Shown here one piece after another: positions 9,706 through 28,269 of a stretch of 38,803 nt of DNA. Source of the DNA: a virus; IMG/VR virus record IMGVR_UViG_3300020473_000061, positions 1-38,803 of that record; one strand, written 5' to 3'. Numbering within the stretch: the stretch's first letter is position 1; every line of letters starts with the position of its first letter. The notes below the pieces were generated by a model. It had not been told where the DNA came from and made no database searches. It saw only the letters and a program-made list of their open reading frames with translations. The position numbers and the translations under genes were made by a program.

Positions 9706-12700
9706 ATGGCAATTAAAATATCAGGCTCTACTATTATAGATGATAGTAGGAATATAGTAGCAGGAGCAGCGGCAACTTTTACTGGAAATGTTTCGGTAGG
9801 TGGAACATTAACATACGAAGACGTAACTAATATAGACTCGGTAGGAATAATAACTGCAAGAGAAGGGATAAAAATACCATTTGATAATAAGAAGATACAA
9901 TTGGGTTCAAGTGCACAGTTAGAAATTTATCATGATAATACTCATAGTTATATAAAAGAATTTGGAAGTGGTGGTTTATATATTAATGGTAGTCAAGTAA
10001 CTATAGGAAACACAGATAATAGCAAAACTAGTATTCTAGCTACTCCCAATTCGGATGTTGTATTAAAATATAATAATTTAACAAAACTTGCTACTACTAA
10101 CACAGGGGTATCAGTAACAGGAACTCTTGCTGCTACTGCATTAACTGGTGATGGTTCTGGATTAACTGGTATTACTACTGCTGGTGGTTCTCCTACTGCA
10201 TGGTCTCAAGACGCACAAGGAAACTTAAAAGCAGGATCCGAGGCAGGTGAAAATCTTGATGCTGATACTTGTTGGAATATTCTTCTAGGTCAGAGATCTG
10301 GATATTCAATTAATTCTGGTGACAGTAATATTTTAATTGGATGTTGTGCAGGTACGTCAATTACTGCTGGATGTTATAATGTTATTTTAGGTCACGCTTC
10401 AGGTAGATGTCTAAGTAGTGCAGGTAATAATGTTATTATAGGTAAGGAAGCAGGAACTGGATCAAGTGGTAATGACAATGTATTCTTAGGTAGATATTCT
10501 GGTACTGGTGTAGGCGGTCAGGGTGATTTTAATATAGGTATTGGTTATGCAACTGGTGGTAGTGGTGGTATGAATAATGGTGATTATAATATTGCACTTG
10601 GATTCCGAGGAGGTTATAAGGTAACAACGGGAGATAGAAATATCTCTATGGGATACGATGCTGGAAAATGTGTAACTACTGGTAGTGATAACATTGCAAT
10701 TGGTCAGTTAGCTCTTGGTGGTGCTACTGTAACTGGTAGTCATAATATAACTATTGGAAAGTATGCAGGTGAGGCTATAACTTCTGGTGCGTGTAATACA
10801 TTCTTGGGTACTTATGCTGGTAGAAATAATACATCAGGAATTCAAAATGTTATAATAGGTTATAATCATTGTGCTGCCTCAGCTGTTGGAGACTGTCAAT
10901 TATCAATTGGTTTTAGTGGTGATTACTGGATACGTGGTAATGAATCAAGCACTGTATGTTTAGCTAACACTACATCTATTAAGGCAGTTAATAGTGGTGG
11001 TGTCTTCTGTGCCACAGAATTTGTTGGTGGTGGTTCTGGTTTAACTGGACTTCCTGGATTCTCACCAGACGCAGATGAAAACTTAGTAGCAGGTACGAAT
11101 GCTGGTGCTAACCTTGATGGTACTAATGCTTGTTATAATGTTTTACTTGGAAAAGATGCAGGTAAATGTATTACTTCAGGTTCATATAACTTGGCAATGG
11201 GTATTGATGCCCTTGGTGATGCCACTCTAACGGGAGATCATAATATTGGTTTTGGATATGGTGCAGGTGAAAAGATGACCAGTGCTGACCATAATATAGT
11301 GTTGGGTTATTTTGCAGGTAAATGTATAACTACTGGTAGTGGTACTGTTGCCATTGGTAAAAATACACTGCTAAAAGTTAGTACCTCAAATTATAATATT
11401 GCTCTGGGTTCTAATGCAGGTTGTAGTGTAACTACTGGTAATTCTAATGTTTTCATCGGTGAGGAGGCAGGAAAATCTAGTTCAGATATTACAGGATCCA
11501 ATAATGTTTTCTTGGGACGTTATGTAGGTCGTGCTGCTGAAGGTGCTACTGCTAATATCCTGATTGGATGTAAGACAGGAGATACTTTAACTACGGGTGA
11601 TCAAAATATTGCTATGGGTTCCAGAGCAATGGGATCTGGTGCTGTTACTGGTGATAATAATATTACATTAGGTCAGTGTTCAGGTAATACTCTGACTTCT
11701 GGTGATAAAAATATTATTATAGGTTGTGGTGCTGGTAAAATTCTAACTACTGGTAGTGATAATATATTCATGGGTGACACTGCTGGTGAGAATCTAACAA
11801 CTACTAGTAGTAATGTTTTCATAGGTAATGCTGCAGGTAGATGTAGATGTACTGGTCATCAGAATATTGCTCTGGGTGGTAGTGCATTAAGAGGAAGTAC
11901 TACTGTTTCTAATAATACTGGTTCATATAATGCAGCATTCGGTGTAAATGCAGGGTTGAATGTATCTACTGGTTCTTATAACTTCTTCTGGGGTAGAAAT
12001 GCTGGTGATGCAGTTACCACTGCAAGTGGTAATATTGCGATGGGTTGTCACGCATTGGGAGGAAATGTTAGTGGTGCTTTTAACGTTGTATTAGGTGCAA
12101 CAGCAGGACAATCAATTGGTGGTGCATGTAACGTCTTTATAGGAAGGGCTGCAGGTGAATCATCTGGAACTGCAACTGATAATGATGCATCTAGCAACGT
12201 TGCAGTAGGATTTGAGGCAGGAAAGTTATTAACTGACGGTGATCAGAATGTTTTCTTGGGTCGTGATGCTGGATCTGACGTTACTACGGGATGTAATAAC
12301 ATTTATCTTGGATATACGGCAGGAAAAGGAGATGCTACAGGTAGTGAGAATATAGCAATAGGTTGCGGAGCAGCCAGAAAAATTGGTGTTGGTGGTGGGA
12401 ATATAAGCATTGGTAAGCAAGCAGGTGGTAATGAAGGAACTGCTGCTGATAATGATGCAGCAAATAACACTTCTATAGGTAATTATGCTGGATATAGTCT
12501 TACTGACGGTGATAACAATATCTTCATGGGTAATAGTGCTGGTGGAGAAACTACTACTGGTCTTGCCAACGTCATGATAGGTAACTATGCAGGTCAGTGT
12601 CATGTATCTGGTAGTGAGAATACTTATATTAACCACTGTGCTGGAAGATGTATGTGTAATGGTAGTGCTAACATTGCCATAGGTCAACATGCACTACAAG

Positions 12701-15700
12701 GTGGTAGTACTGTAAGTGCTAATACTGGTTCACTTAATGTTGCGATTGGAAAGGAAGCTGGTTGTGTTATGACTTCTGGTACTCGCAATGTTCTTCTTGG
12801 AGCAAATGCTGGAGATGCTATTACATCAGGTAGTTATAACGTTGCCCTTGGATTTAATGTAGATGTAGCATCAGCAACTGGTAATACTCAATTAGCAATT
12901 GGTTGTGCAGCTTCTAATTGGATTACTGGTGATAGTTCCTTTAATGTATGCCTAGCAGGAAGTACCATTAAGGCAATGGCTTCTGGTGGTATCTTCTGTG
13001 CTACAAGTTTTGTTGGTTCTGGTGCTAACTTAACTGGTATTAATGCTGGATTTGATCCAGACTCCCAAGAGAACTTATATGCTGGTACTAATGCTGGTGC
13101 ATCTTCTGGTGCTGGTACTTGTTATAATATTGCTATAGGATATGAAGCTGGAAAAGTAACTGGTGATTATAATATCTTCTTTGGTAAGGGTGCTGGTAAG
13201 AGTGGTACTACTAGTGGTAATAATAACATTTTCATTGGTTGTTATTCTGGTCTCTGCATGGGTGGTGGTGGAGGAAATCAATTTATTGGTGACAATGCTG
13301 GTAGAAAATCTAATGGTGCATATAACGTTGTCTTAGGTAGATTTGCTTTTTGTGGTGATGCATCTCATAATGGGTGGAATAATGTTGTTATTGGTCATAA
13401 GGCAGCTAAAGGTGTAACTGGTGGTAATTCTAACGTATTCATAGGTCAATATGCTGCATGTGATTTTACTACTGGTTGTAGGAATGTTGTTATTGGATAT
13501 CAAGTTCACCCACCTTCATTATCTGGTAATAATCAATTAGCTATTGGTTGTGGTGCTCATAACTGGATTGTTGGTGATAGTTCATTCAATGTTGGTATTG
13601 GTACTACTATTCCTACTGGAGCAGTTGGTGTTGGTAACACTGCTAAGTTATCAGTCGGTATCTTATCTGCCTATCAACTTTATGGTGATGGTTCTAACTT
13701 AACTGGTATTAATGCTGGATTTGATCCAGACTCCCAAGAGAACTTATATGCTGGTACTAATGCTGGTGCTGCGTCTGATGCTGATACTTGCTTTAATGTT
13801 GCCATCGGTTATGAGGCAGCAAAGGCATTAAATGCAGGTGATAAAAACGTTTTTATTGGGTATGGTGCTGGTGCTTGTACTACTACAGGTAGTGACAATG
13901 TATTCTTAGGTAGATATGCTGGTCAGCATACTCCTGATGAAGATTCGAGTGTTTTTATAGGAAAGAATTCTGGAAGGTGTAATACTGGTTGTGCTAATAT
14001 TGCTATTGGTCTTTGTGCACTGAGGGGTACTGCTACTCCTAATGATAATAGTGGATATCGTAACATTGCTCTTGGTTGTAGTGCAGGTAAAGAACTGACA
14101 GACGGTGATGATAATATTCTGATCGGAGATCAAGCAGGACGTAATATAGGTGTTGCATTTTATAATTTGATTGGTGGTTATCATGCAGGTTGTAATATTA
14201 GCACTGGTTCTGCCAATATTATACTTGGAAAGTATGCAGGTAGGAGTGGTGTTCTCACTGGTGGATGTAATTTCCTTGGTGGTTATAAGGCAGGTGAAGA
14301 TATTACTAGTGGTGCTTGTAATCTATTACTTGGTGTTACTGCAGGGGCTAATCTAACGACTGGTTCTTCTAATATTGCACTGGGTCAGTTAGCTATGGGA
14401 TCTGGTACTGTAACTGGTACTCAGAACTTTGTTGGTGGTTATAAAGCAGCATGTAAGTTAACTTCTGGTTCCCAGAATATTGTGATGGGTTCTGAGGCTA
14501 TGGGAAGTGGTACCATAACTGGTGATAAGAACGTAGCAATTGGTGATAATGCTGGTTATAAATTAACCAGTGGTCAGTATAATATATTATTTGGAACATG
14601 TGCTGCTAAATGTTTAACTGATGGTCATAATAATATTGTAATGGGCAGATGTGCAGGAAGAGGTCAAAATTTGACTGGAAATGTTAATATTATATTAGGT
14701 GCTTGTGCTGGATATGGTATTCAAAGTGGTAGTGGTAATATTCTACTTGGTATGTGTACTGGTAAATTAATTAGTACTGGTGGTCATAATGTTTTCGTGG
14801 GAGGTTATGCAGGTTGTTCTATTGGTGCTGGTGGATGTAATGTCTTCCTTGGAAAGGATGCAGGTAAGAGTGTAACTACTGGTAGCAATCTTATTGCAAT
14901 AGGATGTGGTGCATTAAGTGCTGAAGATACTAATACTAATGGATCAATTGCGATTGGTCAGGATGCATTAGCAGTTCAGAATACTACTGGTTTAGGGAAC
15001 GTTGCGATAGGTAAAAATGCAGGTCAATCGGTAACTACTGGAGGAGAAAGCGTTTACATCGGATATTCTGCTGGTGGTGGTACAACTGGTAGTAAGAACA
15101 CTATTATCGGATTTTTAGCATTAACAGCTTCAGGTTCAGGAGAAGAAAATGTTGTTATTGGACGAGATGCTGGTCGTAACACTACAGGTAGTCAGAATAC
15201 AATAGTAGGTGATGCAGCAGGAGATGCTTCTGGTGATGGTAGTTATAATGTATTTTTAGGTAAAAATTCTGGTAGTGCCGTCACAAATGGAGATGGAAAT
15301 ACTTTCTTGGGTTATAATTCAGGAGATGCAGTCACCACTGGATGCTATAATGTTGCCCTTGGACATAATGTAGATGTAGCATCAGCAACTGGTAATACTC
15401 AATTAGCAATTGGTTGTGCAGCTTCTAATTGGATCAGTGGTGATAGTAGTTTCCATATCCAACCTGGTGCTGGTATTAGAGACACAGCTGGTAATCTAGG
15501 TAGTGCTGGTCAAGTTTTATGTACTACTGGTAGTGCTGTAGCATGGGCAGATGCTGGTGGTGGTGCGACTTCAGGATCATTTACTGCAACTCCAGGTAGT
15601 GCATCTACCTTAGATACATATGCTTATGATTCTGCAGAATTAGTATTTGAATATACTGTGTTTGTTAAAAATGGTTCTGACTATCAATCACAAAAAATAC

Positions 15701-15876
15701 TTATTATGAGAGATAGTACAACAGTACATTCGACTGAATATGCTGTGATGTATAGTTCTTCCTTACTTGTTTCATTAGACGTTACAATAAGTGGTAGTAA
15801 TCTGTTATTGAGAGCTACACCAGAACCTGGTGTAAGTGGTTCGACAACATTCCGTTTCAAGCGTGAGGCAACTTAA
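9706..15876 (+). CDS. Giant tail fibre 2 with four YadA-head-like cassettes (2056 aa)
   Basis: The N-terminal shaft (residues 1-165, MAIKISGSTIIDDSRN, then TLTYEDVTNIDSVGIITAR) is shared in style with other cyanophage fibres. Four cassettes follow, at about residues 166-445, 450-1111, 1117-1333 and 1340-1921. Each opens with a D(A/S)xxNLxAG entry motif, runs through many NIxIGxxAGxxxTTG repeats, and closes with a QLxIGxxxxxWIxGDSSFN cap. The C-terminal about 110 residues form a different beta-sandwich-like domain (SGSFTATPGSASTLDTYAYD to FRFKREAT) and contain no S74 chaperone. Unusually for a virion fibre, cysteines recur at fixed places (GxCNxxxG, AGxC). Two long perfect DNA repeats lie inside the gene. 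The stop overlaps the next start as TAATG. The product is probably a trimeric host-recognition fibre; the receptor is unknown. Confidence 0.88.
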   Translation: MAIKISGSTIIDDSRNIVAGAAATFTGNVSVGGTLTYEDVTNIDSVGIITAREGIKIPFDNKKIQLGSSAQLEIYHDNTHSYIKEFGSGGLYINGSQVTIGNTDNSKTSILATPNSDVVLKYNNLTKLATTNTGVSVTGTLAATALTGDGSGLTGITTAGGSPTAWSQDAQGNLKAGSEAGENLDADTCWNILLGQRSGYSINSGDSNILIGCCAGTSITAGCYNVILGHASGRCLSSAGNNVIIGKEAGTGSSGNDNVFLGRYSGTGVGGQGDFNIGIGYATGGSGGMNNGDYNIALGFRGGYKVTTGDRNISMGYDAGKCVTTGSDNIAIGQLALGGATVTGSHNITIGKYAGEAITSGACNTFLGTYAGRNNTSGIQNVIIGYNHCAASAVGDCQLSIGFSGDYWIRGNESSTVCLANTTSIKAVNSGGVFCATEFVGGGSGLTGLPGFSPDADENLVAGTNAGANLDGTNACYNVLLGKDAGKCITSGSYNLAMGIDALGDATLTGDHNIGFGYGAGEKMTSADHNIVLGYFAGKCITTGSGTVAIGKNTLLKVSTSNYNIALGSNAGCSVTTGNSNVFIGEEAGKSSSDITGSNNVFLGRYVGRAAEGATANILIGCKTGDTLTTGDQNIAMGSRAMGSGAVTGDNNITLGQCSGNTLTSGDKNIIIGCGAGKILTTGSDNIFMGDTAGENLTTTSSNVFIGNAAGRCRCTGHQNIALGGSALRGSTTVSNNTGSYNAAFGVNAGLNVSTGSYNFFWGRNAGDAVTTASGNIAMGCHALGGNVSGAFNVVLGATAGQSIGGACNVFIGRAAGESSGTATDNDASSNVAVGFEAGKLLTDGDQNVFLGRDAGSDVTTGCNNIYLGYTAGKGDATGSENIAIGCGAARKIGVGGGNISIGKQAGGNEGTAADNDAANNTSIGNYAGYSLTDGDNNIFMGNSAGGETTTGLANVMIGNYAGQCHVSGSENTYINHCAGRCMCNGSANIAIGQHALQGGSTVSANTGSLNVAIGKEAGCVMTSGTRNVLLGANAGDAITSGSYNVALGFNVDVASATGNTQLAIGCAASNWITGDSSFNVCLAGSTIKAMASGGIFCATSFVGSGANLTGINAGFDPDSQENLYAGTNAGASSGAGTCYNIAIGYEAGKVTGDYNIFFGKGAGKSGTTSGNNNIFIGCYSGLCMGGGGGNQFIGDNAGRKSNGAYNVVLGRFAFCGDASHNGWNNVVIGHKAAKGVTGGNSNVFIGQYAACDFTTGCRNVVIGYQVHPPSLSGNNQLAIGCGAHNWIVGDSSFNVGIGTTIPTGAVGVGNTAKLSVGILSAYQLYGDGSNLTGINAGFDPDSQENLYAGTNAGAASDADTCFNVAIGYEAAKALNAGDKNVFIGYGAGACTTTGSDNVFLGRYAGQHTPDEDSSVFIGKNSGRCNTGCANIAIGLCALRGTATPNDNSGYRNIALGCSAGKELTDGDDNILIGDQAGRNIGVAFYNLIGGYHAGCNISTGSANIILGKYAGRSGVLTGGCNFLGGYKAGEDITSGACNLLLGVTAGANLTTGSSNIALGQLAMGSGTVTGTQNFVGGYKAACKLTSGSQNIVMGSEAMGSGTITGDKNVAIGDNAGYKLTSGQYNILFGTCAAKCLTDGHNNIVMGRCAGRGQNLTGNVNIILGACAGYGIQSGSGNILLGMCTGKLISTGGHNVFVGGYAGCSIGAGGCNVFLGKDAGKSVTTGSNLIAIGCGALSAEDTNTNGSIAIGQDALAVQNTTGLGNVAIGKNAGQSVTTGGESVYIGYSAGGGTTGSKNTIIGFLALTASGSGEENVVIGRDAGRNTTGSQNTIVGDAAGDASGDGSYNVFLGKNSGSAVTNGDGNTFLGYNSGDAVTTGCYNVALGHNVDVASATGNTQLAIGCAASNWISGDSSFHIQPGAGIRDTAGNLGSAGQVLCTTGSAVAWADAGGGATSGSFTATPGSASTLDTYAYDSAELVFEYTVFVKNGSDYQSQKILIMRDSTTVHSTEYAVMYSSSLLVSLDVTISGSNLLLRATPEPGVSGSTTFRFKREAT
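12855..12923 (+). repeat. 69-bp direct repeat, copy 1
   Basis: Identical base for base to 15366-15434. It encodes the cassette-closing cap (NVDVASATGNTQLAIG through SNWI) of giant fibre 2. Confidence 0.9.
13025..13100 (+). repeat. 76-bp direct repeat, copy 1
   Basis: Identical to 13694-13769. It spans a shaft-to-cassette junction (NLTGINAGFDPDSQENLYAG), the entry motif of cassette 3 of giant fibre 2. Confidence 0.9.
13694..13769 (+). repeat. 76-bp direct repeat, copy 2
   Basis: Second copy of the repeat at 13025-13100, 669 bases (223 codons) downstream and in the same frame. It is the entry motif of cassette 4; recombination between copies would delete cassette 3 in frame. Confidence 0.9.
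15366..15434 (+). repeat. 69-bp direct repeat, copy 2
   Basis: Second copy of the repeat at 12855-12923, 2511 bases (837 codons) downstream and in frame; it encodes the cap of the last cassette of giant fibre 2. Confidence 0.9.
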
Positions 15877-18800
15877 TGAGTTTAGATGTTACTATAGTTG
15901 GAGAATCTGAAGATACTCCTGTTATAAACTATACTCCAGATCCAATTGATGAGTATATGGTAATTGTGAATCTTCCAGAAGATTGGGAAGTAGTTCACAA
16001 TTATATCATTAATGAAAATGAAATTGATGGTATTCCAAATAGAAAGGTTGAGTGTAGTAATGATCAACCTTTTTCATTAAGAACATCTATCTATATGATG
16101 AGTGCTGCAGAGGTAGAAGTATTAAAAACTCATCCTAAAGTTGAGACTGTTGAATTAAATCCTGATAAGTATCCTCAACCACAATCAATAGATGCTTATC
16201 GATATAAAAAGAATGTTGCATTTAATAAACCACTCTTAACTGCTGGTCAAGGTTCAGAATCTACTGGATATACAAATGGAGTTAGATCGAATTGGTCTCA
16301 TTTATTTTTAACAAATCCAACATCAACACCATATAAAGGAGTTGGTATTACTACGACAGATACAACGGATAGTGATGTCATATATTCTTTAACGGGTAAA
16401 AATGTTGATGCAGTTACCATTGATACTGGAGTTGGTATATTACATCCTGAATTTATAGCTGGTGATGGAACATATAGAGTACAGGATGTAATTCTTGATG
16501 GTCCATATAAAGTTGATCCAGATTTCTTTAATGCAGATCCTACTAATAGATTAGAAACAGTTACGATTGATGGAGTTTCAATTGGTACTCGTGCAAAAGA
16601 ATCTGTTGCTCGTGATTGGTGGGCTAATACTGGAACAAGTTATAGGTCTGCTGCATATGCAAGTATTGGTACAGCTACAATTTCATCAAGTTACACAAGG
16701 ATACATGCACATAGTAAGAATGGAACGAATGCTGTTACCAATAGTCACGGAACATCTTGTGCATCTCAAATTGGAGGTAAGTCATTTGGACTAGCAATTG
16801 AGGCTAATTTATGGAATATAAGAATAGCATTAGGTGGTGCAGGTGGTGTTGTAAGTGGTGATACTTCATTAAATATATGTACAATATGGCATAAGGCTAA
16901 AAAAATTCAATCAGGTAATCCAGATCCTACCATTCTTAATAATAGTTGGGGTTCAACAGGATCAACTGGTAATAGTAGTGGTACATCATACAGTCATGTT
17001 TATAGAGGACAATCATTAACTTATACTGGCAGTGGAAGTGCTGGAACAATTCCTGCTAACTCTGGTTCTTGTAGGAACAATAAGTATTTTACTGTTCATA
17101 CTGGATCTCCTTCAACTCTTGCATATAATGGAGATGGTCAATACACAAACACTGGTAGTACGACTAATACTGCAGCAGAAAATGCAATTGCAGCTGGTGT
17201 TATAGTTGTATCATCTGCAGGAAATACGAATCAAAAATTATCAGATAAGAATGATGTTGATTTTGATAATTTATATGGAGGATATGCATATGTTAATAGA
17301 ACTGGTGGAGTTCAACAAGGATTTTCGGGAGACCATGAAAGATATAAAGGTACTATAAGAGTTGGTGCATTAGATTGTGCAGTTGAACCACATGACGAAA
17401 AGCAAGGATCTCCAAAATATTCAATACGTAAAGTTGTTTATTCTGCTAATGGTCCTATGATTAATATCTGGGCACCTGCAGAATATACTATGTCTGCTGC
17501 CTATGCAAGTGGTGAAGATTTGCAAAGAACAGACAATTCAAGTTTCTATGATCATTGGTTTAATGGAACAAGTTCTGCTTGTCCAAATACAGTTTCTTTA
17601 CTTTGTTTATTCTTAGAATCAAATAGAAGTGCTAATCAAGATGTTGTAAGACATTGGTTAGATACCAGTGGGTCTACACCAATTGCCCTATCAGATCCGT
17701 ATAGTGGAGTGAATGATACTGGTTATTGGAGTCTTAATTATAATTCAACATATGATCAACCTACCATTGAATGGGATGGTTATAATGTTCGTGGTAATGG
17801 TAATCTAAGAGGTGCGACTAATAGAGTTTTAACCAATCCATATGCAAGTAATACTCTACCGACAATAAGATCTTCTAAGGGTGTTGTTGAGGATGGACTT
17901 GTATTATATTACAGTGCAAATAATACATATTGTTATGAGAAAAAAACATTTGAATTTGATGTAACTAATAGTGGATCAGGTGCTTATACTATTTCAGGAA
18001 CAGATAGGAATGGAACTGTTTCTGGTAATAATCCATCTATAAGTATCTTTTCAGGTGACCTTCTTAAATTTAAAGTTGATGCCAGTGGACATCCATTCTG
18101 GGTTAAAACAGTTGCTAGTACTGGAACTGGATCAGGAGCTTCACAAGTTACGAATAATGGTGATGATGATGGAACAGTTACTTTTGATACATCAACTTTA
18201 AATACTGGAACATATTATTATAATTGTCAATATCATAGTTCAATGCAAGGTACCATTTCGAACGTTAATAATAAATTATATAATTTGGTGAGACCAGGTG
18301 ATGGATGGTATCAATCTACTCCTAGTCCATATTACTTAGATGGAACAATTACATGGGGAACATCTTTTAGTTCTGATAATGGTGGAGTTTGGGACTTTAG
18401 TTCATCTCAAACTCAAATACAGAATCCTGTTCATACTAGTACTACTTTCGGAACAGGTGACTTTGCATTTGAATTTTGGGTTAATCCTGATGACTTTGGT
18501 AGTAGAGGAACTTTCTTTGATTCAAGACCCTCTAATGGTACAACAGGTATAACGATTGGTCACGAATCATCTTCAGGAGAAATTAGAGTTTATATGAATG
18601 CTACTAGTGGCAGTGATATTGTTGTGCAAAGTAGTGATTTTGTAGCAGGTCAATGGCAACACATAGTAGTTACAAGGTTATCTGGAACAGTAAGTTTATT
18701 TATCAACGGAGTTTTAAAAGATTCTGGAACTCGTACAAGTGATTTAAATAATAATAGTTCTGTAATTATTGGATATAAAACTTACACCTCTTCTACTTAT

Positions 18801-20084
18801 GATTATTTTGATGGTAAAATTGGTGAGATTCGTATATACAAAGGAAGTGGTTTAACGCAAGCACAAGCAAAACATAATTATGATACAACTAAAGCGAGAT
18901 ATAATTCTTTGTCAGATACAATTGGTCTGGTATCTTATGGTGATTCAAAAATAACTGCTGGAGATGCTATTAAAGGATTGCAATTCCATACTCATCCTGA
19001 AGATGTTATTGTGGGTCAACCTGCAGAAACATATCAAAAATCTTATGGTGCTGTGGTGAGATATCAGAATTCAAGTAGTACTTATAAATCGTCATTCATT
19101 GTATCTAATAATGAGTTTTCAAGTGCCACAGTATATGATGATAAAACTGATACTGGTAGTTCACAAATGGGTGGTTTTTCAGCTTCAAAAACTCATATGT
19201 ATTATAAAGGTTATTGGGGTAATCGTCAGATGATTAGACTAAGTGATCTGACATTTACGGGTCAGTACAAATATAATGGTCAATCTCCATACACATATAA
19301 TAATAGTTATCCCAATAATTTAATTGGTGCTAATTGGTCAGCTAATCTATACTATGCAACTAATAATACTAGTGAACCAATGGGTGATTTTACTCAATCA
19401 ACATTAAAAACTACCGCAGGTATTTCAACTTCTGGTAGTGGTTATATACACGGAACTGCATCCATGAATGGTATCACCCTATGGGCAAGTGGTTATCAAG
19501 GTGGTGGTATGGATAAGTCAAGAATATTTAAGAGTACTGATGGTGGTGTTAATTTTACAGAAGTATATTCAATTTCACCATATTCATTTGGTGGATATCT
19601 TGGTGCCTATCCACATTATAATGGTGGTAAGTTTATGTGGTGGGTAGGTGCAGATAGTACAAATAAAGTTTTTTCTTCATCTGATGGAGAAACTTGGACT
19701 GATGAAGGAGCTCAGAGTAGTGGTCCAGGAGCACCTACTTATCATGGATTTCGAGAGATTGTTTATAATAAGTATACTTGTAAGTTTTATCGGTGTTGGA
19801 ATTCGCAACAGGTAATGTCATCTTCTGATGGTGTGACATGGAGTCAGGAAACTTCATTTACACCTGCTCATTGGAATATGGTTGTTATGTATGATGGAAG
19901 TATGCTTGGAATGCAGATTGATGGAACCAATGCTAAGTTCTATAAATATCCAAGGAGTGGTCATAAAATAGATTGGACAAATTCCACATTATTAAATACA
20001 TCATCAATATCATCTAATATTAGTAGTGTTAATTCTCCTACTATAGGTTTATGGGGATTCACTGCACATAGTTCTGGAGGTTAA
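15876..20084 (+). CDS. Subtilisin-like protease with cupredoxin, LamG and Asp-box segments (1402 aa)
   Basis: A mosaic, probably virion-bound protein. Residues about 20-105 resemble an I9-type subtilase prodomain (MSAAEVEVLKTHPKVETVEL). The S8 catalytic domain follows, with Asp183 (VTIDTGVG), His291 (HGTSCAS), oxyanion Asn in NNSWGS (355/356) and Ser566 (GTSSACP). Residues about 690-800 form a cupredoxin-like domain with all four type-1 copper ligands placed as in amicyanin: His739 (GHPFWV), Cys784, His787 and Met790 (C-x2-H-x2-M). A LamG/concanavalin-like sandwich covers about 830-1010 (FAFEFWVNPDDF, then WQHIVVTR and LFINGVLKDSG). The C-terminal region has Asp-box motifs (STDGGVNF, SSDGETW, SSDGVTW) of a beta-propeller. 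There is no signal peptide. The ATG overlaps the stop of giant fibre 2. It could process capsule or fibre proteins; the substrate is unknown. Confidence 0.88.
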   Translation: MSLDVTIVGESEDTPVINYTPDPIDEYMVIVNLPEDWEVVHNYIINENEIDGIPNRKVECSNDQPFSLRTSIYMMSAAEVEVLKTHPKVETVELNPDKYPQPQSIDAYRYKKNVAFNKPLLTAGQGSESTGYTNGVRSNWSHLFLTNPTSTPYKGVGITTTDTTDSDVIYSLTGKNVDAVTIDTGVGILHPEFIAGDGTYRVQDVILDGPYKVDPDFFNADPTNRLETVTIDGVSIGTRAKESVARDWWANTGTSYRSAAYASIGTATISSSYTRIHAHSKNGTNAVTNSHGTSCASQIGGKSFGLAIEANLWNIRIALGGAGGVVSGDTSLNICTIWHKAKKIQSGNPDPTILNNSWGSTGSTGNSSGTSYSHVYRGQSLTYTGSGSAGTIPANSGSCRNNKYFTVHTGSPSTLAYNGDGQYTNTGSTTNTAAENAIAAGVIVVSSAGNTNQKLSDKNDVDFDNLYGGYAYVNRTGGVQQGFSGDHERYKGTIRVGALDCAVEPHDEKQGSPKYSIRKVVYSANGPMINIWAPAEYTMSAAYASGEDLQRTDNSSFYDHWFNGTSSACPNTVSLLCLFLESNRSANQDVVRHWLDTSGSTPIALSDPYSGVNDTGYWSLNYNSTYDQPTIEWDGYNVRGNGNLRGATNRVLTNPYASNTLPTIRSSKGVVEDGLVLYYSANNTYCYEKKTFEFDVTNSGSGAYTISGTDRNGTVSGNNPSISIFSGDLLKFKVDASGHPFWVKTVASTGTGSGASQVTNNGDDDGTVTFDTSTLNTGTYYYNCQYHSSMQGTISNVNNKLYNLVRPGDGWYQSTPSPYYLDGTITWGTSFSSDNGGVWDFSSSQTQIQNPVHTSTTFGTGDFAFEFWVNPDDFGSRGTFFDSRPSNGTTGITIGHESSSGEIRVYMNATSGSDIVVQSSDFVAGQWQHIVVTRLSGTVSLFINGVLKDSGTRTSDLNNNSSVIIGYKTYTSSTYDYFDGKIGEIRIYKGSGLTQAQAKHNYDTTKARYNSLSDTIGLVSYGDSKITAGDAIKGLQFHTHPEDVIVGQPAETYQKSYGAVVRYQNSSSTYKSSFIVSNNEFSSATVYDDKTDTGSSQMGGFSASKTHMYYKGYWGNRQMIRLSDLTFTGQYKYNGQSPYTYNNSYPNNLIGANWSANLYYATNNTSEPMGDFTQSTLKTTAGISTSGSGYIHGTASMNGITLWASGYQGGGMDKSRIFKSTDGGVNFTEVYSISPYSFGGYLGAYPHYNGGKFMWWVGADSTNKVFSSSDGETWTDEGAQSSGPGAPTYHGFREIVYNKYTCKFYRCWNSQQVMSSSDGVTWSQETSFTPAHWNMVVMYDGSMLGMQIDGTNAKFYKYPRSGHKIDWTNSTLLNTSSISSNISSVNSPTIGLWGFTAHSSGG

Positions 20085-20264: not shown

Positions 20265-23200
20265 ATGGCAGATAAGAGTTTTGGTGTAAAGGAATTAAAT
20301 TTATTTGGGTCATCGGGAACTCCCACGATTGATAGTCCCAATGACTTGAATTTAAATGCTAGTACTGTTGCCATAAGTACTAATCTAACGGTAGGAAATA
20401 AACTTAGTATATCATCAGCAGGTATTGTAACTGCCATAAGTGGTGTTGTAACTTATTATGGAGATGGATCAAAATTAACTGGTATTTCTGCAGGTGGATT
20501 CACACCAGACGCACAAGAAAACTTATTTGCAGGAACAGGTGCTGGTGCATCTAAAGATTCTGATACTTGTTTTAATATTGGTATAGGAAAATGTGCTTTA
20601 AACGCACAGGATGCATCAGGATCATATAATGATGGTAGTAATGTAGCGATTGGTTGCTTGGCTATGTGTAGAGCAACAGGTGGACAAGAGCATGTTGCAA
20701 TAGGTGAAAAAGCAGGTGCAGGTTTAATGAATGGATATAGCAATATCTATATTGGAAATACTGCTGGAGGTGATACAGGAGCTACAATTAATAGTGAATT
20801 TAATATTGGATTGGGATATGGAGCTTTAAGGTCTAATACTGGTCATTGTAATATATCATTTGGTTATGAGGCTGGAGTACAAGGTAACGCAGCTCATAAC
20901 TTCACCGTTGGTAGATATGCTGGAGGTCATTTACAGAGTAGCAATAACGTTGCCATCGGTGAATGTGCGATGCAACAAACGTCTACTGGTAACGGTAATA
21001 ACATTGTAATCGGTAAGAAAGCAATGTTATGTTCAACCAGTGGATCTCATAATGTAATCTTAGGATGTGGTGCAGGTGAGCAGACAAATACTGGTGCTTA
21101 TAATATTTTCATGGGTGAAAATGCTGGTAAGTGTCGAACCGCTTCTGAGAATAATGTTTTCTTGGGTGCTAATGCTGGTAGAAATGGTACAAGTGGTTGC
21201 TTAACTATTGCAATAGGACCGTCTGCTGGTTTAACTAATACTGCTAATAATAATATTTTCCAGGGTAATCAAGCTGGTAGATATACTACTACTGGTTCTC
21301 ATAATATTTTCCTTGGAACTTATGTAGCAAAATGTCATACCACTGGTGGATGTAATATATTCATTGGTAATGAGGCAGGAAGTAATGTTAGTTCTGGTGG
21401 AACTGGTGATGGTAATATTGGATTGGGATGTAAATCATTAACTTGTTTGACATCAGGATCAAATAGTGTTGCAATAGGAAGACAGGCAGGATATAAAGTA
21501 AGTAGTGGTAGTAATTATATTGCCATTGGTTATCAGGCATTATTTACAGAAGATACTGGTGGTTCTGGAGCAGTTGCGATTGGTTATCAGGCATTATGTC
21601 AACAAAATGCAAGTTTTGGATATAATGTTGCAGTTGGATATCAAGCAGGAACGGCAATAACTGATGCGACAGAAAACGTTGCCGTGGGTTATCAAGCTGG
21701 TGAAGGAATCACGACGGGTACTGGTAACGTTGCCATTGGAGCAAAAACATTAACGGCTGCAGGTTCAGGTGGTAGTAATGTTGCAATAGGACAAGACACT
21801 CTTCGTAACAATACTGGTAGTGGTAATGTTGCAGTAGGTGGAGCAGCATTAGATGCTTCTGGTGCTGGTGGAACAAATAGTGCATTTGGTTATGCTTCTG
21901 GTAGTAGTGTTACAAGTGGATCGGGAAACACCTTATTAGGTTATCAAGCTGGTGATGCAATTACTAGTGGTTCTGGTAATGTTGCCATTGGTAAAGCTGT
22001 AGATGTATCATCACCATCTGGTAATACTCAATTTATTATTGGTTGTGGTTCTAATAAGTGGATATGTGGTGATAGTAACTATAACATTTATGATAAGGAT
22101 GGTAACCAAATCACCGGCGGTGGTGGAGGTTCATCAGGAACTTGGACACCAGATGCACAAGACAACTTAAAAGCAGGTACTGATGCTGGTAAATGTTTAT
22201 CAAGTGATAATGATTGTAATGTTTTAATAGGATATAAAGCTGGTTGTAAGGTATGTGAAACAGGTGGCAGTTGGGGACAAAGTTCTATAATGATTGGTAC
22301 TTGTGCTGGTATAAATGATACCCATGCACTTTATAATGTCTGGATTGGTCATACGGCTGGTAGTGCCAATAGTAATGGTTTTTATAATACTGCAATTGGA
22401 ATGTATGCACTAAGAAGTAATACTTCATCTAATTGCGGCGTTGCACTTGGATATGGAGCTGGTTGTGGTGCTAATGGGTATCGTAATACTTTCTTGGGTG
22501 CAATGGCTGGTAGTAATGTTACTAGTGGATGTGCTAATGTTGCTATTGGACCTGGTTCTGAAATCGCATCTGCAACAGGTAACAATCAATTAGTAATTGG
22601 ATGTGGTAGTAGCTATTGGTTGAGAGGTGATAGTAGTTGGAATGTTAGAATTGGTGCTGGTATTTTAGATTGTGATAATACTACTGGAACTAGTGGTCAG
22701 GTCTTAAGTTCTACTGGTAATAATATTAAGTGGGTTGCTTCTGGTGGAGGTGGTGGATCAGGTGGTTGCCTGAAATTAGATTCTGATGTTAACATATATT
22801 CTGATGGAGTATGTGCTGGATGTGATTTTGATGGAACAAATGCATGTTATAACATAGCAATTGGATGTTGTGCAGGTCATACAATTGCAAGTGGTTCTTA
22901 TAATGTGGCACTTGGTTATGGGGTGATGAGTCAGAACACTGCTTCAGGAAATTGTAATACTGTTCTAGGTAGAGATGCAGGAAAATGTATTTGGTCTGGT
23001 ACTAATAATATATTTCTTGGTACTGAGGCAGGACGTGGTGATAGTACTTCTGGTATAAGTGGTTCAAACAATATTGCCCTTGGAACATTTGCATTACAAC
23101 AATTAAGTAGTGGATCAAACAACTTTGCTATTACTTCTTATGCTGGATGTGAGATAACAACTGGTTATGCCAATATTACCATTGGTGAAAAGGCAGGAAG

Positions 23201-25520
23201 CTCTATAACATCTGGTGCTTCCAATGTAATGTTGGGTCCTTATGCAGGTCAGGAGACTACTGGTAGTCATAACGTATACATTGGTTCTTGTGCTGGTCAA
23301 GCGGCAACGACTGGTTACAACGTTGCCATAGGTTATATGGCAGGATGTGTTGCTAACAATGGTTATGAAGTATTCATAGGATCTGAAGCTGGAAGATGCA
23401 TGGTGGGTGATAGCAGTGTTGCCATAGGTAGACAGGCTATGAGGGGTGGATCGTCTTCAACCTCTGGAAATGATGCAGTTGCAATTGGAATGTATGCAGG
23501 TAAGAATACAACTACTGCTGCTGGTAATGTTTTAATAGGTAGGGACGCGGGAAGTACTGTAACTACAGGTGGTTGTAACGTTGCCATTGGTCTTTATGCT
23601 GGTCAATGCATACAAGATAATCAAAATAGTGTTTACATAGGTGCTAGAGCTGGTGCACTTGTTAAGGGATATGGTAGTGTCTATATTGGATGTTGTGCAG
23701 GATATGGTGTTGCAGATTGTTATAATGCAGAAAATGTTTATATTGGTTGCAACACTGCTAAGGGTGTTACTACTGGAAATCTTAATGTAGTAGTTGGAGG
23801 AGCAGGTGCTCAAACAATGACTACTGGATCATGTAATGCTGTTCTTGGTTCAAATGGGGGATATTCACTCACAACGGGTTCTCAAAATTCAACTTTAGGT
23901 GCATTTAGTGGTTATAATATAAGTAGTGGTACTCATAACGTTGCGATTGGATATTGTGCTAAAGTAGGTTCAGCAACTGGCAATAAGCAATTTGTAATTG
24001 GTTGTAATACAAGTTGGTGGATCTGTGGTGATAGTAACTTTAACATCTATGACAAAGATGGTAACCAAATCACCGGCGGTGGTGGTGGTGGTGGATCAGG
24101 CGGTTGTCTGAAAGTGGATAGTGATCAGAACGTATACTCTGATGGAACTTGTTCTGGATGTGGTATTACTTCTGGTAGTGGTCTTAAAAATGTTGCAATA
24201 GGTGCTTGTGCTGGTAGATGTTTTACTACTGGTGATAACAGTGTATTCATAGGTGCTAAAGCTGGAGAAGGAACAACTACTGGTAGCAATAACATTTATC
24301 TTGGTAGATATGCTGGATATGGTGCTAGTAGTGGTGGTATGAATTTCTTTGGAGGATATCAGACAGGTGGTTTTAATACTGGTAGTAATAATGTAATGTT
24401 TGGTTATCAGACAGGATTTACGTCTGGTAATGGTAGTGATAATGTACTTATAGGACAACTTACATACCACAAATTATGTAGTGGTAGTGGTAATGTTGCT
24501 ATTGGTCGATATGCTGCATATTGTAATTGTGGTGGTAATAATAATATTTACTTAGGATATGATGTTGCATATCATGGAACAAGTAATTGTTATAATGTTC
24601 TTCTGGGTTATAAGGCAGGTAGTGCTGGTAGTAGCACATATATGTGTTGTGCTAATGATAATATTGGATTGGGAAGAAAAAATTTATATGCATTATGCTG
24701 TGGTGATTCAAACGTTGCCATTGGTCATGAGGCAGGATGTGCATTGACAAATGGATGTTGTAATACTTTCTTAGGAACATATGCAGGTCGTAATGTTACT
24801 ACTGCAAATTGTCAGGTTATAATTGGTCCTGGTAGAACTTCTCCATCAGCTACCAGTAATAATTGGATGATAATGGGTGTTGGTGCTTCTGATTATTGGA
24901 TCATGGGTAATGATTCCTTTAATGTTTGTTTCCAGAGAGGTATAGTTGATTGTACTGGAAGTACTGGTACGAGTGGTCAGGTATTAAGTTCCACTGGTAG
25001 TTCTTACATGAAGTGGGTTGCTAATTCTGGTGGCGGTGGTGGTGGATCACCAGGTGGTTCAGATACTCAAGTTCAGTATAATGACTCTGGTAGTTTTGGT
25101 GGGTCATCAAATATGACCTTTAATGGAACTGCTTTAAGTGCTAATACTATATGTGGAACAGCAGGTAATCATTTATTATGTGCAACTGGATCCAATTCAG
25201 CCATAACATTATGTTCTGGTGGTAGTAATGCGAATATCTACTTATGTTCTACTGGTAGTAATGCACAAGTAAGAATTACTTCGACTGGTAGTAATGGTGT
25301 ATCAAGAATGGATGGACTAAATGGGGTTGAATTATCTCATGGTGGATCATTTTCTTCTACAAAATTAGCAACCACTAGCACGGGAGTAACGGTAACTGGA
25401 TGTGTTAACACATCATTGAGTGTTCCTTCAAGTGCTAATGGTGTGAGAAAGATTACTGCATCAACTTCAGCTCCATCTGGCGGTGCTGATGGTGACATTT
25501 GGATTAAGTATACAGCTTAA
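20265..25520 (+). CDS. Giant tail fibre 3 with four YadA-head-like cassettes (1751 aa)
   Basis: A third repeat fibre, close in style to giant fibre 2. A short N-terminal shaft (residues 1-79) leads to four cassettes at about 80-622, 628-828, 836-1273 and 1280-1565. The first two open with PDAQ(E/D)NL; the last two with CLKxDSDxNxYSDG. Each closes with a cap ending W(I/L)xGxxxxN. Cassettes are joined by glycine linkers of five to eight residues, two of them introduced by the same DKDGNQITGG string. The C-terminal domain (GGSDTQVQYNDSGSFGGSSN, then GDIWIKYTA) is a shaft-like tail found on other phage fibres; there is no S74 chaperone. Cysteine is frequent, often as GCNxxxG or AGxC. It follows a TATAAATA late motif. 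It is probably a trimeric adhesin; the binding target is unknown. Confidence 0.87.
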   Translation: MADKSFGVKELNLFGSSGTPTIDSPNDLNLNASTVAISTNLTVGNKLSISSAGIVTAISGVVTYYGDGSKLTGISAGGFTPDAQENLFAGTGAGASKDSDTCFNIGIGKCALNAQDASGSYNDGSNVAIGCLAMCRATGGQEHVAIGEKAGAGLMNGYSNIYIGNTAGGDTGATINSEFNIGLGYGALRSNTGHCNISFGYEAGVQGNAAHNFTVGRYAGGHLQSSNNVAIGECAMQQTSTGNGNNIVIGKKAMLCSTSGSHNVILGCGAGEQTNTGAYNIFMGENAGKCRTASENNVFLGANAGRNGTSGCLTIAIGPSAGLTNTANNNIFQGNQAGRYTTTGSHNIFLGTYVAKCHTTGGCNIFIGNEAGSNVSSGGTGDGNIGLGCKSLTCLTSGSNSVAIGRQAGYKVSSGSNYIAIGYQALFTEDTGGSGAVAIGYQALCQQNASFGYNVAVGYQAGTAITDATENVAVGYQAGEGITTGTGNVAIGAKTLTAAGSGGSNVAIGQDTLRNNTGSGNVAVGGAALDASGAGGTNSAFGYASGSSVTSGSGNTLLGYQAGDAITSGSGNVAIGKAVDVSSPSGNTQFIIGCGSNKWICGDSNYNIYDKDGNQITGGGGGSSGTWTPDAQDNLKAGTDAGKCLSSDNDCNVLIGYKAGCKVCETGGSWGQSSIMIGTCAGINDTHALYNVWIGHTAGSANSNGFYNTAIGMYALRSNTSSNCGVALGYGAGCGANGYRNTFLGAMAGSNVTSGCANVAIGPGSEIASATGNNQLVIGCGSSYWLRGDSSWNVRIGAGILDCDNTTGTSGQVLSSTGNNIKWVASGGGGGSGGCLKLDSDVNIYSDGVCAGCDFDGTNACYNIAIGCCAGHTIASGSYNVALGYGVMSQNTASGNCNTVLGRDAGKCIWSGTNNIFLGTEAGRGDSTSGISGSNNIALGTFALQQLSSGSNNFAITSYAGCEITTGYANITIGEKAGSSITSGASNVMLGPYAGQETTGSHNVYIGSCAGQAATTGYNVAIGYMAGCVANNGYEVFIGSEAGRCMVGDSSVAIGRQAMRGGSSSTSGNDAVAIGMYAGKNTTTAAGNVLIGRDAGSTVTTGGCNVAIGLYAGQCIQDNQNSVYIGARAGALVKGYGSVYIGCCAGYGVADCYNAENVYIGCNTAKGVTTGNLNVVVGGAGAQTMTTGSCNAVLGSNGGYSLTTGSQNSTLGAFSGYNISSGTHNVAIGYCAKVGSATGNKQFVIGCNTSWWICGDSNFNIYDKDGNQITGGGGGGGSGGCLKVDSDQNVYSDGTCSGCGITSGSGLKNVAIGACAGRCFTTGDNSVFIGAKAGEGTTTGSNNIYLGRYAGYGASSGGMNFFGGYQTGGFNTGSNNVMFGYQTGFTSGNGSDNVLIGQLTYHKLCSGSGNVAIGRYAAYCNCGGNNNIYLGYDVAYHGTSNCYNVLLGYKAGSAGSSTYMCCANDNIGLGRKNLYALCCGDSNVAIGHEAGCALTNGCCNTFLGTYAGRNVTTANCQVIIGPGRTSPSATSNNWMIMGVGASDYWIMGNDSFNVCFQRGIVDCTGSTGTSGQVLSSTGSSYMKWVANSGGGGGGSPGGSDTQVQYNDSGSFGGSSNMTFNGTALSANTICGTAGNHLLCATGSNSAITLCSGGSNANIYLCSTGSNAQVRITSTGSNGVSRMDGLNGVELSHGGSFSSTKLATTSTGVTVTGCVNTSLSVPSSANGVRKITASTSAPSGGADGDIWIKYTA
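22098..22126 (+). repeat. 29-bp direct repeat encoding the DGNQITGGGG linker, copy 1
   Basis: Identical to 24057-24085. It encodes the linker after the first cassette of giant fibre 3, in the same frame as the second copy. Confidence 0.8.
24057..24085 (+). repeat. 29-bp direct repeat encoding the DGNQITGGGG linker, copy 2
   Basis: Second copy of 22098-22126, 1959 bases downstream in the same frame, after the third cassette of giant fibre 3. This marks a possible recombination seam between cassettes. Confidence 0.8.
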
Positions 25521-25584: not shown

Positions 25585-28269
25585 ATGGCAACTTATTATA
25601 TTGACTGGGAAGGCGGAGATGATTCTAAGGATGGTACTTCGTTTGCCAATAGAAAAAGGACTCAGTATGGTTTTCAGCAAGCTGGTATAAGTGTGACAGG
25701 TGGTGATGAAATTAGATTTGCTGGAAAACCTAGACAGTTACTTGATAGTAATGCCAGAATATGGAATTGGATGGGTTGGAGACCATATCATTATTATAGT
25801 ATAGGTAGTATAACTTATAGTCAAACAACAGGTGAAACAGTTCTTACTTGGTCTAATCATGGAATGCAGACAGGAGAAACTGTAGGAATAGATCAAAATA
25901 GTAATTTCTCAAATCATTGGGAAACAATTAATGGTATGTGGGAGATTACAAGAGTTGATGCTAATACTTTTAAATTAAATGATTACACTGCACCTTCTGG
26001 TGCAACCACTGGAAGTGGTGGGTATATAAGAAAGATGAAAAATTCTATAGTACAACTTTCATCAGAAGTAACACAAGAACTTGCATCTAATGGTCAAAGA
26101 AATGCACCTTGGACTGCATCTACAAATGTTACTACTAGTTTAGAAACAACTACTGGAACATGGAGTAGTCAGGTTCCTATGCAATCACATGCATATTCTG
26201 ATAAAATTGAGATTGCAGATGGATTTGGAACTGGAAAGGCTGCATATTGGCCAATTGGATCAGCATTAAATTTATCTGGATATCAACAGGTGTCTTATCT
26301 AGTAAGACAGACTAGTGGAACTAGAACATCAACAGGAACAGGATCAACAACAACTCCAAATCTTAGTTTGAGGTTATGTACTGATACTAGTGGAGATACT
26401 TCTGTCCATACAATTCCAGTTATGACTGGTTCAGATACTAGTTCGACTTGGAGAGATTTTACTCATGATTTTGGAACTAATTTAAATTCGAGTATACAAT
26501 CCGTAGCTCTTTATGTTGATGTGGATAATGGAGCACAAACATTTAATTTTGATAATATTATTGCATGTAAGGCTAAATCTGCAGCTGATAGTTTAACATT
26601 GAATAGTGTAGTTGGTTTTGGAACACAACCAAATAATCCTCATTATTGGAAGATAGGTTCTATAAGGAAGAAAAATATTCGAATTTTGATGGGTGATAGA
26701 CGAAATAGTTATTATCCCTATAGTTATTATACTCCTGGTGGAGCTGATTGGTCTGGTGCTATTGGTGTTGCTCGAACTGCTAACACATATTCAACAGTAA
26801 ATATGTATAAAATAGAACCAACTCAAGTATGGGAGGATATGGGTATAGAGCCAGTTAGTGGTTCTTGGAGTAGTTATAGTCCTAATTGGTTTGAAATCAG
26901 TAGTAAATCTGGAGTTAGTACAACAAGTCGTCTTAAAATAAGTGGTGGTTGGGATGTCAGTACTAATATGGCAACACAACATACTGGTGGATATACAGCT
27001 CTTAATGGTCATAATAGTTATGGTTATTTTCTGCGTTTTAATAGTTGTAGTTATACAGAGTTTGAAAATTTCATGGCCATGAGTGCACTAAGACCCCTTG
27101 ATTTTAGTAGTTGTCATTATAGTCAGTTCCATAATTGTGGTGTTACTGGTGCGGGTTATTATGGGTTGATGATGCAGAGTTGTCAAAGGTTACTGGGTGG
27201 TTGTAGTTTATGGGGAAATGGTGGTACTCAATCTGTATATATGAGTAGTTGTAATAACTGGAATGATTATGAAGAACAAAATGCGGGGATAACTACATTT
27301 TGGTCTTCCACTAGTTATTCAGAAGGTGTTGTTGTTCAGCATCATACTAATAGTAATATTCATAAAATGGTAGGGAAGCATGTAGCACAAAGTTACGGGT
27401 GTGCATTATCTTATAGTACTGGGTGTAGAGTTGACTACATTGATGCTGGAGATTCTCCTGGTAGTGGTGGTTCTGTTCAAGGGTTTAGAATGTACCAGAA
27501 TTATGGTGGAGTAACTGTTGGTATTCTTACTGTAAGTAATTGTTATTATGGAACATATTTTGAAAATTCAGGAGATGTAGTACTTGATAAAGTTGATTTG
27601 ATCAGGGAAGATTGGGATCTATCTAATGGTTCAAATGGATATCAAAATAATATGCAATATGGATTTTATACTAGATATAATTCTGAAGCTAGAGTTAAAG
27701 GTGGTCAATGGGATAAACAACCTTACCTGGACGGATCAGATATATTCACAGATAATGTAATCTTGAATTATAGTAGTTCTCCCAACTTTACTGGAAATTA
27801 CAGGATTCTTGCTAAGAATCATGATGGTACTAGTGGTGAATATAAAAACTTCTATCGATATGGAACTGTTGAACCAGATACATCAACAAGACATACTGCA
27901 TCTGGTTGGTCTTGGAAAATTGATATTAGTAGTAGTAGTGCAAGCCCTACATCTCCAATTGACTGGGAAGTTGCAAAGGTTATATGTAATGCAAATGCAC
28001 AGGTAACTGCTTCTATTTGGGTTTATCGTGATGGAACGGGTGTGAATGGTGGTCTAAGGGTAAAAAGTGGTGCAGCTGCAGGTATAACTGCTGATATTAA
28101 TGCGGTTATTTCTGATAATACATCTGGTTCTTGGGTTCAATGTTCATTAAACTTCACACCAACAGAAGCTGGTGCGGTAGCTATATATGCTATGGGATAT
28201 CAGCCTACAAGTGGTGGAAACAATAGTCATAATCTATGGCTTGATGATTTCTCAGTAACACAGGCATAA
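25585..28269 (+). CDS. Beta-helix virion protein, possible depolymerase or fibre (894 aa)
   Basis: The N-terminus (TYYIDWEGGDDSKDGTSFAN) is the entry motif of phage beta-helix proteins. Residues about 73-148 carry one HGM-TGE beta module, a cousin of the modules in the 928-aa protein. The central region, about 468-658, has the regular short strands and Ser/Cys/Asn stacks of a right-handed parallel beta-helix (FNSCSYTEFENF, then FSSCHYSQFHNC). Residues about 745-894 look like a carbohydrate-binding jelly roll (WEVAKVICNANAQVTASIWV to LWLDDFSVTQA). No catalytic residues can be assigned by eye. A clear GGAGG ribosome binding site lies 10 bases upstream. Such proteins are either polysaccharide-degrading tailspikes or fibre parts; which applies here is open. 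Confidence 0.75.
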   Translation: MATYYIDWEGGDDSKDGTSFANRKRTQYGFQQAGISVTGGDEIRFAGKPRQLLDSNARIWNWMGWRPYHYYSIGSITYSQTTGETVLTWSNHGMQTGETVGIDQNSNFSNHWETINGMWEITRVDANTFKLNDYTAPSGATTGSGGYIRKMKNSIVQLSSEVTQELASNGQRNAPWTASTNVTTSLETTTGTWSSQVPMQSHAYSDKIEIADGFGTGKAAYWPIGSALNLSGYQQVSYLVRQTSGTRTSTGTGSTTTPNLSLRLCTDTSGDTSVHTIPVMTGSDTSSTWRDFTHDFGTNLNSSIQSVALYVDVDNGAQTFNFDNIIACKAKSAADSLTLNSVVGFGTQPNNPHYWKIGSIRKKNIRILMGDRRNSYYPYSYYTPGGADWSGAIGVARTANTYSTVNMYKIEPTQVWEDMGIEPVSGSWSSYSPNWFEISSKSGVSTTSRLKISGGWDVSTNMATQHTGGYTALNGHNSYGYFLRFNSCSYTEFENFMAMSALRPLDFSSCHYSQFHNCGVTGAGYYGLMMQSCQRLLGGCSLWGNGGTQSVYMSSCNNWNDYEEQNAGITTFWSSTSYSEGVVVQHHTNSNIHKMVGKHVAQSYGCALSYSTGCRVDYIDAGDSPGSGGSVQGFRMYQNYGGVTVGILTVSNCYYGTYFENSGDVVLDKVDLIREDWDLSNGSNGYQNNMQYGFYTRYNSEARVKGGQWDKQPYLDGSDIFTDNVILNYSSSPNFTGNYRILAKNHDGTSGEYKNFYRYGTVEPDTSTRHTASGWSWKIDISSSSASPTSPIDWEVAKVICNANAQVTASIWVYRDGTGVNGGLRVKSGAAAGITADINAVISDNTSGSWVQCSLNFTPTEAGAVAIYAMGYQPTSGGNNSHNLWLDDFSVTQA

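Follow-up and report, generated by a model that had tools for sequence, protein, structure and literature searches.

The type-1 copper cupredoxins (amicyanin, rusticyanin, plastocyanin, nitrite reductase and the laccase domains) are beta-sandwich proteins with a His at the start of one strand, a Cys at the end of another, and a His and a Met in the next loop. Among phage proteins, the T4-like cyanophage protein cluster T4-GC_292 has members carrying the subtilase family PF00082, and the iron-binding His-x-His motifs of phage tails underlie the Ferrojan or Trojan Horse idea, as presented in the passages of PMC11705849 considered here. The protein described in this study joins a subtilase to a cupredoxin-fold domain. 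It is encoded on the plus strand at positions 15876-20084 of the virus record IMGVR_UViG_3300020473_000061, whose 38,803 nucleotides were analysed as a whole and are referred to below as the window. This 38.8-kb record contains gene types usual in T4-like cyanophages (PhoH, ThyX, carbamoyltransferase and sulfotransferase), together with glutaredoxin-like genes, judged as such by eye, and long fibre-like open reading frames (ORFs). The ORF is uninterrupted and begins at a start codon that overlaps the stop codon of the fibre-like ORF before it; its 1402 residues comprise, in this order, the subtilase, the cupredoxin domain (about residues 690-799), a LamG domain and three degenerate Asp-box motifs. 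A first-pass annotation, made from the DNA letters alone, had proposed this combination; the seven residues it named (D183, H291, S566, H739, C784, H787 and M790) are all found where it placed them, and the C-x2-H-x2-M spacing, which is the amicyanin layout, is as it stated. The nearest named relative of the protein belongs to a single-cell marine virus placed in Kyanoviridae, with 65.8% identity over residues 3-677.

The subtilase (S8) catalytic domain extends over residues 108-665 (16197-17870), as delimited by homologue alignment, PDB profile search and fold comparison. Its catalytic residues, located by position and by homologue alignment, are Asp183 (16422-16424), His291 (16746-16748) and Ser566 (17571-17573), the last within a GTS motif, while Asn450 (17223-17225) is the probable oxyanion-hole Asn, a role presumed from subtilisin. 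All 85 aligned homologues have the Asp, His and Asn, and the Ser is present in every one of the 82 that reach its column (the count leaves out three rows gapped there, L247, L249 and L301). A PDB profile search with the subtilase family returned aqualysin, keratinase and proteinase K relatives as the top matches. In a structure model of residues 1-815 (mean predicted local distance difference test, pLDDT, 75.0; predicted template modelling score, pTM, 0.70), residues 108-664 align to proteinase K-type subtilases over 277 residues with Z 33.0 and a root mean square deviation of 2.4, the partners at this Z being a Meiothermus keratinase and ProteinT. PF00082 is matched by five of the six aligned relatives and scores above cut-off in 13 of 20 named phage records. 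Fold match and residue conservation thus establish the subtilase and its triad as real, and the domain is very probably an active protease. The preceding segment (residues 24-95, 15945-16160) is a probable I9-like propeptide on its predicted secondary structure, residues 24-94 being modelled as beta-alpha-beta-beta-alpha-beta, the strand-helix order of the I9 propeptide. Family searches gave no I9 family or fold match for residues 24-94, so that the prodomain proposed in the first-pass annotation is plausible rather than proven.

The cupredoxin domain (residues 690-799, 17943-18272) was delimited by profile searches and predicted fold. When residues 687-802 were modelled alone, a cupredoxin fold of nine strands was obtained (pLDDT 96.5, pTM 0.89), which bears out the earlier proposal for this segment. 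In the model, the first ligand, His739 (18090-18092, within GHPF), lies just before a strand, Cys784 ends the next-to-last strand, and His787 and Met790 are in the loop that follows (Cys784-x2-His787-x2-Met790, 18225-18245); these ligands were assigned by position and conservation, and their placement along the strands is the canonical cupredoxin order. All the 45 Foldseek matches in the PDB at an expectation value (E) <=0.001 are cupredoxin-fold proteins, nearly all of them copper proteins; rusticyanin ranks first, and the classes represented are small cupredoxins, copper nitrite reductases, laccases/multicopper oxidases and coagulation factor V. The fold is supported by the VIA matches as well as by Foldseek, and in the fold comparison the N-terminal domain of a nitrite reductase scored Z 10.9 and rusticyanin 10.3, with laccase domains among the best. 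A profile search from the domain matches amicyanin, rusticyanin and plastocyanin. No solved phage copy is present among the PDB matches listed (the best 60 of 140 in one search). In a BFVD search, the same fold was found in proteases, connectors and fibres of cyanophages; giant-virus proteins have it as well, among them one from Fadolivirus named 'Blue type 1 copper protein'. A cupredoxin fold of this kind is therefore not limited to phages.

The four ligands are strongly conserved among copies of the module. In a first set of 26 copies, H, P, Y, C, H and M were the sole invariant columns, the ligands being complete in 26/26. With a profile in which the four ligand columns were masked, and with clusters formed below 60% identity, all four ligands are kept in 57 of 59 clusters; this final set was confined to near-full-length copies at E<1e-5 (238 of 260 matches, 172 of them unique), and degenerate copies could be missed by it. 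The two exceptional clusters read M-S-D-A and D-S-R-M. Three or four ligands are thus gone together, and such near all-or-none loss is as expected for a metal site. Cupredoxin-like copies minus three or four ligands occur at L011:4324-4683 and L096:5695-6051 and represent natural metal-free comparisons; in L011, an intact copy is present in the same long ORF. Because the full-length filter could hide degenerate copies, 20 very weak matches were examined separately by eye: 15 have all four ligands, two are plastocyanin-type genes (one of them annotated petE), two are partial, and one is the M-S-D-A protein. One pattern scan used patterns holding Cys and His and was blind to ligand loss, a limit from which two other searches, one of them with the window domain as query, are free. 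Among the copies retrieved without ligand-bearing patterns, a less biased set with a mean pairwise identity of about 36% among its clusters, 32 of 33 clusters keep all four ligands; no more than six of the 107 columns reach the conservation of the ligands, which account for four of the six, and Pro almost always follows the first His. The ligand set is also complete in 7/7 further named phages. The two cluster counts rule out that the ligands are kept by chance, an alternative raised in the first-pass annotation, and homologues lacking two or more ligands, which would have spoken against its proposal, make up just two of the 59 clusters.

The module is widespread. The window domain alone, used as query, retrieved 98 phage records, a connector copy from phage ACG-2014b retrieved 349, and a tail-fibre copy retrieved 40, including phages of Pelagibacter and Methylophilales. 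Its host proteins are the baseplate wedge/tail-fibre connector of T4-like cyanophages, tail fibres and proteases, and it is often the C-terminal domain across many unrelated tail proteins; the N-terminus of the cupredoxin-bearing connector of ACG-2014b matches T4 gp10 and gp9. These hundreds of marine phage records rule out a domain peculiar to the window protein and contradict the earlier statement that such a centre would be unusual for a phage. Judged from sequence, the cupredoxin module is a mobile unit of marine phage tail proteins. The virion linkage assumed in the first-pass annotation is supported indirectly, by the record of phage S-SCSM1, in which gp144, related to the protease, and gp141, a proximal fibre with a cupredoxin, are both labelled as virion proteins. 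For this phage, PMC9602691 reports 45 virion proteins by mass spectrometry, a figure taken here as a total for the virion. Five matches to cellular contigs, obtained with ligand-containing patterns, all read HP and C-x2-H-x2-M; at least two (L327 and L329) look by eye like phage contigs, and three (L325, L326 and L328, bacterial assemblies labelled Chryseobacterium, OCS116 cluster and Wenzhouxiangella) have the domain in apparently cellular proteins.

In most of the named phages examined, the cupredoxin is fused to, inserted in, or coded near a protease of this family; since these records were picked by similarity to the window protein or its domain, the counts of arrangements are not frequencies. 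The module is C-terminal in the proteases of S-H9-1, S-CAM4, ACG-2014h, ACG-2014i and P-HM2. In AG-345-F15 (L013:4989-5333) and S-BM3 (L020:4992-5342) it apparently lies inside the subtilase, ahead of the Ser-bearing part, and in S-BM3 just the C-terminal part of PF00082 matches, downstream of the module. It is found in a gene adjoining the protease in P-SSM2, Sf-CH8, S-SSM7 and AG-345-L05, and about 7 kb from the protease in S-SCSM1. In the closest named relative (L027:6001-8031) the protease stands alone and a cupredoxin ends the next ORF, whose start resembles that of the window ORF at 20265, suggesting a module swap between neighbouring genes.

The analysis thus found the catalytic residues and fold of a subtilase, a cupredoxin fold with near-invariant H, C, H and M at amicyanin-type spacing, and the same module in annotated baseplate wedge/tail-fibre connectors, tail fibres and other proteases of the family. 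The window protein is a probable tail component, from the baseplate or fibre region, of a T4-like marine phage of the cyanophage type. On balance we favour a tail protein made of a propeptide-bearing subtilase, a metal-binding cupredoxin module and domains of the glycan-binding type (LamG and a probable propeller). The core of the first-pass interpretation therefore stands: the subtilase is genuine, and so is the cupredoxin-fold domain joined to it, with its full, strongly conserved type-1-like ligand set. The claim of rarity among phages does not hold. In the mechanism that we propose, under the propeptide the protease would stay folded but inactive until processing; binding to host-surface glycans would be the task of the LamG and propeller parts, and the protease may there trim host surface protein, or else may trim neighbouring fibre proteins. 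The cupredoxin module would bind one metal ion, most likely copper, presumably picked up at or after lysis because virions are built in the cytosol. Instead of serving electron transfer, the bound metal would clamp the ligand loop and stabilize a surface or joint module by which tail parts are mounted or stiffened. The module is best read as a copper module with a structural or docking role on the virion, redox or sensing roles being less likely. It is a more tentative thought, and an unlikely one, that copper is carried by the particles of many marine T4-like phages, in particular cyanophages. A dedicated, hitherto undescribed cupredoxin module at tail-fibre joints and on tail proteases would then load copper released by lysis and use it in locking or switching parts of the tail, and infectivity would be affected by the copper supply.

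Several observations weigh against the favoured reading. The window's own subtilase gave no match to PF00082 in Pfam and NCBIfam searches, and its cupredoxin copy falls below the Pfam gathering cut-offs (16.0 vs 21.2 bits for PF00127, 16.4 vs 27 bits for PF13473). The two clusters that have lost three or four ligands show that the fold can persist metal-free. Phage S-T4 has the protease and no cupredoxin match in its record, and among 80 protease loci found by protease motifs alone, none is fused to a cupredoxin; 22 have a copy within 2.5 kb downstream and 17 others within 2.5 kb upstream (the latter counted by eye), while 26 of the 80 have too little downstream sequence. Protease and cupredoxin therefore need not work together, and an obligate pair is ruled out; the varied arrangements and the lack of fusions in this survey indicate that the module is mobile and the pairing loose.

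Three alternatives concern what the cupredoxin site holds and does. The domain might be purely structural, with no metal in the virion and the ligands kept for packing, as the persistence of the two ligand-poor clusters would allow; moreover, the cytosol where virions assemble is thought to be low in free copper. We consider this unlikely, because H, C, H and M are retained in nearly all clusters despite the low mean identity of the less biased set, and in 15 of the 20 very weak matches (the one degenerate copy there having lost the site), and because packing hardly explains so strictly kept a surface Cys-His-Met loop. It appears similarly improbable that the site is not a blue copper centre and holds a different metal (zinc, or Cu(I) alone). 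Folding in the cytosol would favour zinc or no metal, and the Pro that nearly always follows the first His stands where classic small cupredoxins mostly have Asn; however, His-Pro is found at the type-1 His of multicopper oxidases, and the best fold matches include laccase domains. A redox or copper-sensing role at the host surface, in which the site would, for example, swap electrons with host copper proteins or take copper from them, would also suit the full type-1 ligand set, which is that of blue copper centres. This is quite improbable, since no partner enzyme, docking patch or signalling element was found, and a structural or docking part better fits a module that occurs in many unrelated tail proteins, often at the C-terminus.

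Two further alternatives concern the protease and the origin of the module. The subtilase could be a maturation protease for neighbouring fibre proteins and not an enzyme against host surface protein. This has a real, if lesser, chance of being correct: the window subtilase lies between long fibre-like ORFs, and its relatives adjoin fibre or connector genes, but the same chain carries LamG and propeller-like parts, which suggests that it binds outwards. That the cupredoxin domain is a recently captured host plastocyanin gene is extremely improbable. Cyanophages do carry petE, P-SSM2 being an example; however, the petE of P-SSM2 is a separate gene, matches the module distantly (E about 1e-5 within the set) and has C-x2-H-x4-M instead of C-x2-H-x2-M, and the idea was rejected on these three grounds.

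With regard to the C-terminal half of the protein, the LamG or concanavalin A-like domain at residues 854-990 (18435-18845) is confirmed by a match to Pfam Laminin_G_3 (PF13385; E 5.2e-24, 85.5 bits vs a cut-off of 27.6). The Asp-box regions of the first-pass annotation are borne out in part: degenerate S-x-D-x-G-x-T-W copies are present at residues 1220, 1268 and 1316 (19533-19844), exactly 48 residues apart, and no Pfam match to Asp boxes or a BNR propeller was obtained for the protein. On either side of the protease, the very long fibre-like ORFs at 9706-15876 and 20265-25520 contain many short repeats; the PHROG families to which they are related bear the labels virion structural and tail spike protein. 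Further along the tail region, the ORF at 25585-28269 encodes 894 residues without a Pfam or PHROG match. A sulfotransferase (28863-29798), an unassigned ORF (30187-31083) and a carbamoyltransferase (31086-32771) lie close together after the fibre genes, and the three are possibly a glycan-modifying set.

Should copper occupy these sites, the tails of an abundant group of marine viruses would contain a trace metal that the hosts both need, for plastocyanin, and are poisoned by; copper would join the iron-in-phage-tails idea, and a function would be named for the C-terminal domain on the fibre connector of T4-like cyanophages. In addition, a propeptide-bearing subtilase mounted on the tail would lend itself to studies of how marine phages pass host surface protein.

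A search of the open-access literature, covering titles and the openings of abstracts, returned no cupredoxin or blue copper domain in phage tails. The window cupredoxin is a known fold in a new setting, for which we found no description and no Pfam model above cut-off. It shares with the type-1 cupredoxins the beta-sandwich and the order of the ligands, and with amicyanin also the ligand spacing; it differs from them in the Pro after the first His, where Asn is usual, in a sub-threshold match to the Pfam cupredoxin models, and in being part of a phage structural protein that, by eye, lacks an N-terminal export signal. The subtilase family phrog_9158 covers residues 26-794, that is protease and cupredoxin together; compared with it and with T4-GC_292, the window protein has two extra parts, LamG and the propeller-like C-terminus. 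The gp9-like baseplate wedge/tail-fibre connector of cyanophages has the same module with the same ligands at its C-terminus, but no protease, and its N-terminus is related to T4 gp10 and gp9. The Ferrojan proposal, in the passages considered (PMC11705849), concerns iron on fibre tips, with another fold and other ligands, and makes no claim of bound copper; what it has in common with the present one is that a metal is proposed in marine phage tail parts.

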